Shown here: positions 24,336 to 26,422 of the stretch, in pieces
How positions within the stretch are numbered: position 1 is the first letter of the stretch
Layout of the letters: every line of letters starts with the position of its first letter
NCBI GenBank assembly: GCA_902618205.1
Contig: CACMZL010000001.1
Location: forward strand, 62,001 to 126,000
DNA from: an uncultured Pelagibacteraceae bacterium
GTDB taxonomy: Bacteria > Pseudomonadota > Alphaproteobacteria > Pelagibacterales > Pelagibacteraceae
Direction of reading: 5' to 3'
Length of the DNA: 64,000 bases
Made by a program: the position numbers and the translations under genes
Notes under the pieces: model-generated
Told to the model about the DNA's origin: nothing
The model's input: the letters and a program-made list of their open reading frames with translations, nothing else
The model's database searches: none

Positions 24336-25289
24336 TTATATTTTGATTTTATTTAATGCATTGTTTTTAAATATATTTGCCTCTCTAATATATCTTCTAA
24401 CCATTTGTGTTGTTTTGTGACCTGTCATAGCCATTATGCTCCGCTCATCAGCGCCTGAATCAGCAGCTACTGTTGCAAAACCCGACCTTAAACTATGACC
24501 TGCAAAATTTTTGTTTTCGATACCTGCTAATTTTAAATATTCTTTCATTAATAAAACTACAGATTGATCAGTTAATCTTTTATCTGTTAATGATAAACCT
24601 TTAGAAAATCTTCTAAAAATAGGTCCAGACTTAATTTTAGAAATTTCTAACCATTTTTTTAGATTTGTAACAGGACAGTAAATTTCATTATCGAAGTAGG
24701 GTATTCCTTTAGTCATTCCTTCGCCAAATTGGTCAGTTTTTGATCTTTTAATAGTGATTTTTATACCCTCTGGAACAAACTCTAAATCCTCATGATCAAT
24801 TGAAATGAGCTCCGTTCTTCTAAAGCCTCCTCCAAAGCCAACTAAAATTATTGATTTATCTCTATGTTTTTTTACTTTCTCAGTTTTTTGTTCATCTATT
24901 ACATTAATAATTGATTTTAAATGATTGATTAATATTGGTTTTTTACCTTTCTGAATACTTCCTTTGACTCTTCTTATTCCCATTAAATTTTCAACGATGA
25001 TTGGATGTTTTGTATCTAGATAATGCCCTTTCAATTTGTGAACCATGCCTATTGATACTAATCTTCGTCTTAAAGTACTTATTTTTGAATTTTTAGAGAG
25101 ATGGGTTAGGTATAAAGAGACTATTTTTGGCTCTGTCGGCAAACAGTCTAATCCATGCTTAGCGCAAAAAGCACCAAAGTCTTTAAAGTCGGATTTATAG
25201 GCTCTTAAAGTATTATTTGCTTTTGAGCTTTTAAGGTTATTTAAAGTTGCCTCATGAAGCGATTTTAGGTCTGTTGTCAGCTCATTCAT
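24336..25289 (-). CDS. Tyrosine recombinase/integrase
   Basis: A 317 aa site-specific recombinase with an N-terminal SAM-like core-binding domain (about residues 1-110) and a catalytic domain containing all expected residues: Arg157 in GGGFRRTEL, Lys184 in KRSKTDQ, His265 and Arg268 in AGHSLRSGF, His291 in MTGHKTTQ, and the nucleophile Tyr300. It lacks an obvious arm-binding domain, so it looks more like a simple XerC/Cre-type enzyme than a lambda-type integrase. A near-perfect 14-7-14 palindrome lies directly before its start codon. It may serve the local elements in trans; that is inference. Confidence 0.93.
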   Translation of the reverse strand: MNELTTDLKSLHEATLNNLKSSKANNTLRAYKSDFKDFGAFCAKHGLDCLPTEPKIVSLYLTHLSKNSKISTLRRRLVSIGMVHKLKGHYLDTKHPIIVENLMGIRRVKGSIQKGKKPILINHLKSIINVIDEQKTEKVKKHRDKSIILVGFGGGFRRTELISIDHEDLEFVPEGIKITIKRSKTDQFGEGMTKGIPYFDNEIYCPVTNLKKWLEISKIKSGPIFRRFSKGLSLTDKRLTDQSVVLLMKEYLKLAGIENKNFAGHSLRSGFATVAADSGADERSIMAMTGHKTTQMVRRYIREANIFKNNALNKIKI

Positions 25290-25292
25290 ATA

Positions 25293-25327
25293 ATTACTAT
25301 TGATAACAATTAATTATCGATAGTAAT
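25293..25327. promoter_or_regulatory. Lox/dif-like inverted repeat upstream of the recombinase
   Basis: ATTACTATTGATAA and TTATCGATAGTAAT are inverted copies with one mismatch, separated by 7 bases (CAATTAA). This is the geometry of a tyrosine-recombinase core site (two 11-14 bp arms around a 6-8 bp crossover region). It lies 3 nt from the recombinase ATG. It could alternatively be an operator for autoregulation or a hairpin in the mRNA leader. Confidence 0.5.
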
Positions 25328-25369
25328 ATAACATTAGCAAATTAATGTCAAATAAAATAAATTAAAAAA

Positions 25370-25861
25370 ATGACAATCGGAACATGGCAGCTTATTGCAC
25401 TTTTAGTAATTTTAAGTCCAACAATCATTGCATTTTTTTGCTGTTTATTTTTAATTAATAAGAAAAGTTATACGAAATTACCAAAAGGATTGGCATTTGC
25501 AGGTTTTTGGTACAGATTAATTGCGGGTGTTATAGATACTGTAATAGTTGCTATTATCACTTTCATTTTAGCTTTTATACCGGTAATTGGCTGGATATTC
25601 GGAATATTCGTAAGTTGGTTATATTATGCTTTACTACAATCATCAAAAAAACAATCTACTTTTGGAATGAGAGCGGTTGATATGAGAATTTCAGACGAAA
25701 ATTACAAAAAAATTAGTTTTTGGAGAGCTTCAGGCAATTATTTTGTATTACCTATATCTATTATGATTATTTTCATTGGTTTATTAATGATTGCTTTTAC
25801 TGAGAGAAAACAAGGACTACATAACTTTATATCAAGAACTTTATGTGTAAGAGATAAATAG
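25370..25861 (+). CDS. RDD family membrane protein
   Basis: A 163 aa protein with about four hydrophobic segments. The family hallmark is the Arg/Asp pair in the first conserved segment, here FWYRLIAGVIDTVIVA, with later GMRAVDMRI and LHNFISRTLCV. Function is unknown; some relatives influence ion homeostasis. It is divergent from the recombinase, so the palindrome region also contains its promoter. Confidence 0.85.
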   Translation: MTIGTWQLIALLVILSPTIIAFFCCLFLINKKSYTKLPKGLAFAGFWYRLIAGVIDTVIVAIITFILAFIPVIGWIFGIFVSWLYYALLQSSKKQSTFGMRAVDMRISDENYKKISFWRASGNYFVLPISIMIIFIGLLMIAFTERKQGLHNFISRTLCVRDK

Positions 25862-25953
25862 TTTGTTAACGCTATTCACAGCTGTTAAAAACTCATAATT
25901 ATCAACTATAAAGTGATACTAATATAATTTGCACTGTGATAATCTCTTAAATG

Positions 25954-26140
25954 AATTAAGAGGCAACTCTTAACTGACCATCTGGGGAAAAATCGAGAGA
26001 TTCAAGCCCAGAGGGCAGAAAACCACGCAGAGTAGCGCTAAAATTGCGGGGTGGAAGGCATGGCGGTAGCGCATACAACGACGTGCCAAAAAACTACTGA
26101 TCTTTGTACCTGAAAAGGTACAGAGATACAGGGTTTTTTT
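25954..26140 (+). ncRNA. Structured RNA candidate of unknown family
   Basis: From 25981 to 26100 I count 62 G/C in 120 bases, against roughly 30% nearby. Three hairpins end in GNRA tetraloops: TTAAGAG-GCAA-CTCTTAA (25956-25973), AATC-GAGA-GATT inside a TCTGGG/CCCAGA helix (25981-26012), and a 12 bp stem capped by GAAA (26100-26127). GCGCTA/TAGCGC (26035-26040, 26067-26072) closes another domain. A T7 run follows at 26134-26140. I could not match it to RNase P, SRP, 6S or tmRNA. The strand is chosen because the T-run follows the last hairpin. It could be an independent RNA or the leader of the next gene, whose ATG lies 6 nt after the T-run. Confidence 0.65.
26100..26140 (+). terminator. GAAA-capped hairpin plus T-run, possible terminator
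   Basis: ATCTTTGTACCT pairs with AGGTACAGAGAT (one G-U pair) around a GAAA loop, and TTTTTTT follows six bases later at 26134. The gap between stem and T-run is longer than in a textbook intrinsic terminator, so it may be only the last domain of the structured RNA. Confidence 0.45.
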
Positions 26141-26146
26141 CTTTAT

Positions 26147-26422
26147 ATGATTCTTAAAGGTACAAAATTTCAAATTAAAGTCTGGAAATACTTAAAAACA
26201 ATTAAAAAAGGTAGTGTTTTAACCTATTCTGACGTTGCAAAGGGTATTAAAAAGCCTAGAGCTGTTAGGGCTGTAGCTAATGCAATTGGAAAAAACCCAT
26301 ATGCTCCTAAAATACCTTGCCATAGAGTAATCAGGTCTGATGGATCTTTAGGAGGATATTCTGGAAAAGGTGGTATAAAAACCAAGAAAAAACTGCTCAA
26401 ATCCGAAGGAATTTTGCTCTAA
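26147..26422 (+). CDS. Methylated-DNA--cysteine methyltransferase C-terminal domain protein
   Basis: A 91 aa protein consisting only of the DNA-binding/active-site domain of O6-alkylguanine-DNA alkyltransferases. The acceptor cysteine is present in KIPCHRVIRSDGSLGGYSG, so it is not an alkyltransferase-like protein with Trp at that site. The helix-turn-helix with the Arg finger is in KPRAVRAVANAIGKNP. The N-terminal RNase H-like domain is absent; short forms exist in other bacteria. The start codon lies 6 nt after a T-run that ends the structured RNA, so its expression may depend on read-through. Confidence 0.87.
   Translation: MILKGTKFQIKVWKYLKTIKKGSVLTYSDVAKGIKKPRAVRAVANAIGKNPYAPKIPCHRVIRSDGSLGGYSGKGGIKTKKKLLKSEGILL

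Follow-up and report, generated by a model that had tools for sequence, protein, structure and literature searches.

What is the GC-rich, apparently structured element that lies beside a recombinase gene in this uncultured Pelagibacteraceae bacterium, does it belong to its neighbouring genes, and what might control it? We addressed these questions in a window of 64,000 nt, the whole stretch of DNA analysed here. An earlier note, made from the letters alone, had described a compact structured RNA at 25954-26140 that it could not assign to a family.

The structured element is a copy of IMES-2

A cmscan search matched window positions 25949-26089 on the forward strand to the Rfam family IMES-2 (RF02035). 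The match covered the complete model (1-141) and scored 162.9 bits (E 5.8e-43), about three times the RF02035 gathering score of 54.7 bits, and the consensus helices of the family covary in relatives, as detailed below. Since RF02035 matches over its whole model, the question of family is answered. With a significant Rfam match the RNA can no longer be called a new family, as the earlier note had itself allowed, but its view that this is not RNase P, SRP, 6S or tmRNA was right. The RNA at 25949-26089 is a real copy of a known family, already catalogued in Rfam. IMES-2 was reportedly described from environmental sequence and is said to be an abundant transcript in marine metatranscriptomes. No function for it was found described in the literature searched.

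The feature begins at approximately 25949, slightly earlier than first proposed, and its control region extends back to approximately 25863. G+C content was 46-53% in 100-nt windows at 25950-26100 compared with 12-35% in most flanking windows, in line with the GC-rich block in AT-rich DNA that had been reported. The predicted fold of 25949-26142 (-71.6 kcal/mol) was more stable than all 200 dinucleotide shuffles (-42.5 kcal/mol; z -7.1), confirming a compact structured RNA, and the core alone gave a z of -4.0. A 67-aa ORF without a Pfam match lies antisense to IMES-2 (25970-26173, reverse strand) and is probably due to chance.

Covariation supports four hairpins and a loop-loop pseudoknot

Secondary structure was assessed in an alignment of 35 diverse IMES-2 copies, in which 45 base pairs were scored. 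Standard pairs filled 94.5% of base-pair cells and 32 of the 45 pairs had changes on both sides, a count that none of 500 shuffles reached (mean 17.1). As a control, the partner column was slid by 1-3 columns, which lowered pairing to 33-41%. The helices thus pass the covariation check that had been suggested for them.

Hairpin P1 (25956-25973) comprises 7 bp closed by a GCAA loop (25963-25966), with 100% of cells paired across the 35 sequences and compensatory changes in five of its seven pairs. Hairpin P2/P2b (25974-26018) carries a GAGA loop (25995-25998) and a 4x4 internal loop; P2 was paired in 94.5% of cells and P2b in 90.6%, and 11 of their 15 pairs showed compensatory changes. In P3 (26022-26052; strands 26022-26029 and 26045-26052) all eight pairs were compensatory and 96.4% of cells paired. 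P4 (26057-26087; strands 26057-26065 and 26079-26087) had compensatory changes in five of nine pairs and a constant G.A mismatch at 26063/26081. Three hairpins with GNRA loops had been noted originally and all three loops are present, but the third, GAAA, caps the terminator hairpin and is not conserved in relatives.

The loops of P3 and P4 are also paired with each other, GCGCTA (26035-26040) in the P3 loop matching TAGCGC (26067-26072) in the P4 loop. This pairing, previously taken for a separate domain, is real and covaries, but it forms a loop-loop pseudoknot spanning 26035-26072. Across the alignment 96.7% of its cells were paired, and diverged copies keep it as GTACTA/TAGTAC, TCGCTG/TAGCGA or GCACTT/TAGTGC. 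Helices P1-P4 and a marine bacterial host are common to our copies and RF02035, whereas the pseudoknot is absent from the RF02035 structure line, and its novelty is judged against that model line alone. The model also stops 5' of the terminator, and the promoter and tandem 9-mers described below lie outside it. A homodimer formed through the palindromic P3 loop (UAGCGCUA) was considered as a conserved feature and rejected, because diverged copies lose the palindrome yet keep loop-to-loop complementarity.

IMES-2 has its own predicted promoter and terminator in changing gene neighbourhoods

The terminal T-run reported earlier belongs to an intrinsic terminator at 26094-26140 (forward strand), in which a long hairpin (-23.7 kcal/mol, z -5.9) is followed by T7. 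A hairpin with a run of at least four T was found in 115 of 140 distinct 3' flanks of IMES-2 copies. Upstream, a promoter is predicted on the same strand at 25913-25943, with a -35-like GTGATA (25913-25918) and a -10-like TGATAAT (25937-25943). A AGTGATAC block and a TGATAAT/TATGAT-like block precede IMES-2 in all gene contexts. A generic scan for sigma70 promoters and terminators did not pick out the conserved promoter or terminator.

At least three such contexts were found. In genus g1, IMES-2 is flanked by a recombinase and an alkyltransferase gene, the latter lying directly 3' in most copies. In the window itself a tyrosine recombinase gene occupies 24336-25289, and the alkyltransferase start codon follows the T-run by 6 nt. 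In genera g5 and g6 IMES-2 lies downstream of mnmA, and in genus g2 between a nuclease gene and an SRAP-like gene. In g2, g5 and g6 the next gene differs from that in g1 and, for most of the copies inspected, lay on the opposite strand. Gene names in the window come from Pfam, and those of the g2, g5 and g6 neighbours from reading their protein sequences. Promoter and terminator thus accompany the RNA through unrelated gene neighbourhoods, and on sequence grounds IMES-2 is therefore a stand-alone RNA gene of Pelagibacteraceae (SAR11), approximately 190 nt long, with a sigma70-like promoter and an intrinsic terminator.

The position of the alkyltransferase gene directly after most g1 copies, with the terminator just before it, could instead suggest that IMES-2 is a cis-acting leader, either riboswitch or attenuator, of that gene. 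We hold this to be highly improbable, and the changing neighbourhoods appear already to have largely refuted it: neighbours differ among genera, so that no one downstream gene or function is constant across g1, g5/g6 and g2, and the other next genes are mostly on the opposite strand. Several IMES-2-negative genomes also keep the recombinase and alkyltransferase at this locus while lacking any RNA in the interval. Furthermore, the hairpin of the terminator forms a module of its own and no conserved competing antiterminator was seen. The link to RDD or alkyltransferase genes that the earlier note had drawn fails for the same reason, as the RNA occurs in contexts with neither gene. Its recombinase neighbour is indeed there, but it stands in RNA-less genomes too.

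The RDD-family gene that precedes IMES-2 in the window (25370-25861) seems to be peculiar to this genome. In relatives its place is taken by a short membrane ORF or by other genes, so that the interval from recombinase to RNA varies.

IMES-2 is patchily distributed within Pelagibacterales

IMES-2 was present in 126 of 248 Pelagibacterales genomes, each at least 80% complete, and never in more than one copy per genome. Among 241 genomes sampled across Alphaproteobacteria, matches were restricted to two, both already known Pelagibacteraceae. A pattern scan of named genomes returned at least 118 matches, and all among the matches listed were Pelagibacteraceae or Pelagibacterales. Hidden diverged homologues in the negative genomes were also considered and rejected: a wider model, R2, built from 35 sequences, found the same genomes positive and added only one doubtful match at 16.6 bits, and no RNA was found in the syntenic interval of the negative genomes. 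Since roughly one in two genomes of the order lacks the RNA, its distribution indicates that IMES-2 is not essential in the Pelagibacterales genomes without it.

Presence is patchy even within a genus, requiring six changes on a tree built from a single core protein, at least four of them forced by well supported branches. Together with the recombinase that adjoins IMES-2 in g1, this single-gene tree could be read as evidence that the RNA is cargo of a mobile element, tied to the recombinase or to phages. Such an origin is very unlikely, however. No match was found among 50,697 phage or 72,556 plasmid records, pattern matches in viral contigs proved not to be IMES-2, the recombinase remains where the RNA is absent, and the RNA is always single copy.

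We also checked for 6S RNA (RF00013), a stand-alone RNA of similar length. None was matched in the 248 Pelagibacterales genomes, whilst the Caulobacter control was positive; either Pelagibacterales have lost 6S or they hold a form that the model cannot see. It is tempting to regard IMES-2 as the SAR11 replacement for 6S, but we give this hardly any credence. IMES-2 does not match RF00013 and consists of four short hairpins and a pseudoknot rather than a single long stem interrupted by a central bubble, and half of the genomes lacking 6S lack IMES-2 as well. IMES-1 was likewise rejected as a partner or replacement, with no match over the cutoff in 80 genomes. One weak IMES-1 match (G000:C1:261532-261621; L216) scored 27.4 bits against a cutoff of 81.

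A tandem 9-mer resembling paired DnaA boxes precedes the promoter

Two adjacent 9-mers, [TTATCCMCR][YTATTCACA], precede the promoter by a constant distance in 47 of the 49 distinct IMES-2 copies. In the window they lie at 25863-25880 (forward strand) as a degenerate TTGTTAACG followed by CTATTCACA. This pair is a weak example of a family-wide motif, with four mismatches in the first box and two in the second, only the latter being well kept. The boxes resemble the DnaA box TTATCCACA, which is matched with at most one mismatch in 33 of the 49 distinct upstreams (shuffled words: mean 0.65, max 26) and with at most two in 47 (mean 5.4, max 38). The high maxima come from a few near-anagrams of TTATCCACA. 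The canonical box is identical in 10 of the 49 distinct copies. Matches are confined to 24-nt windows that, counted from the -35 element, span approximately -58 to -22, with almost none in other upstream windows. A DnaA-regulated promoter would be expected to have boxes similar to TTATCCACA in a constant position, as is seen here, although they are weak in the window copy. To our knowledge, zero spacing between two DnaA boxes is not a typical layout.

The element is present in every context, whether after mnmA, after a small ORF by the recombinase or after other ORFs, and also precedes the most diverged IMES-2 copies (genus g2, score 15.3). In g5 and g6 the 9-mers share sequence with the mnmA stop region, yet their conservation is not a by-product of protein coding, because three copies with a shorter mnmA keep them after the stop codon. 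In 15 IMES-2-negative genomes the element was absent upstream of the alkyltransferase (best score 6.6, against a median of 23.4 at real sites). We did not find this conserved control element described in the literature searched, and it is new here.

The full 18-mer is close to unique in genomes. Strict TTATNCACA was not enriched in the window's own genome (47 occurrences against 45 for control words), and the strict DnaA-box count showed no tight cluster there that would locate the origin.

A related site lies upstream of hemE

One extra 18-mer match pointed to the region before hemE. Using a matrix learnt from IMES-2 upstream sites only, the best match fell 56-62 nt before hemE in 20 of 22 genus-g1 genomes (L268-L289), and 15 of these 20 had a p of 0.02 or less against Markov shuffles. 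In the window's own genome the copy upstream of hemE is weak, as is that upstream of IMES-2. In Caulobacter, hemE marks the site of the origin, which contains DnaA boxes (PMC8959179). The 9-mers upstream of hemE in g1 are candidates for the SAR11 oriC or for a site that controls hemE, and they may serve hemE regulation instead of marking oriC.

DnaA is the leading candidate for binding the tandem 9-mers. It is not proven, because strict TTATNCACA is unenriched in the genome and the genome's own copies at IMES-2 and hemE are weak. We consider it fairly probable that IMES-2 is a stand-alone structured RNA that acts in trans and whose transcription is linked to DnaA or a factor like it. Binding of the 9-mers by DnaA, or by another factor that recognises the same site, would couple transcription of IMES-2 to the state of replication initiation. 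The folded RNA would then work in trans, either as a structured scaffold or by binding protein, a role suggested by its conserved positions, which are mostly structural, and by the lack of an evident exposed conserved antisense stretch; a protein partner is probable.

It is also conceivable, if rather unlikely, that IMES-2 acts in trans but the 9-mers bind an unrelated transcription factor that regulates hemE too, conveying a metabolic signal and not replication. The element occupies a position 5' of the promoter that would suit an activator, a related site precedes the hemE start codon, and TTATNCACA is unenriched genome-wide. Against this, the 9-mer is the canonical DnaA box in a number of the distinct copies, and the alphaproteobacterial origin lies at hemE.

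A bolder version of the DnaA-linked reading is possible but tentative: IMES-2 as a replication-coupled regulatory RNA of SAR11, with DnaA setting its transcription and the RNA reporting or adjusting replication state in trans. If true, this would be a replication-coupled RNA in a lineage with few known cell-cycle regulators. IMES-2 is now placed in closed and near-complete genomes, all from a single family among the most abundant bacteria of the ocean. Its gene boundaries are set, a covarying pseudoknot is added to the structure of the Rfam model line, and its conserved control element is new here; the last gives an orphan RNA a concrete hypothesis of replication-linked expression, a first clue to its role.

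A parallel, short of demonstrated homology, may be drawn with CcnA of Caulobacter crescentus (PMC8959179), likewise a stand-alone RNA of an alphaproteobacterium and, at 182 nt, similar in size, with DnaA boxes and hemE associated with its locus; DnaA-box-like sites are found at IMES-2 too. CcnA is situated within the origin and responds to CtrA (PMC8959179), whereas IMES-2 is far from hemE in the closed genomes G001, G007 and G015. In G015, IMES-2 lies at 1338870 and hemE at 604979 on a chromosome of 1378805.

The recombinase/alkyltransferase locus, which spans 24336-26422 in the window, is approximately half a chromosome from hemE in closed g1 genomes; in G003 the locus is at 674923 and hemE at 67118, of about 1.2 Mb. 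At such a distance the locus may coincide with the terminus of replication, and the presence of the recombinase may be connected with this position.
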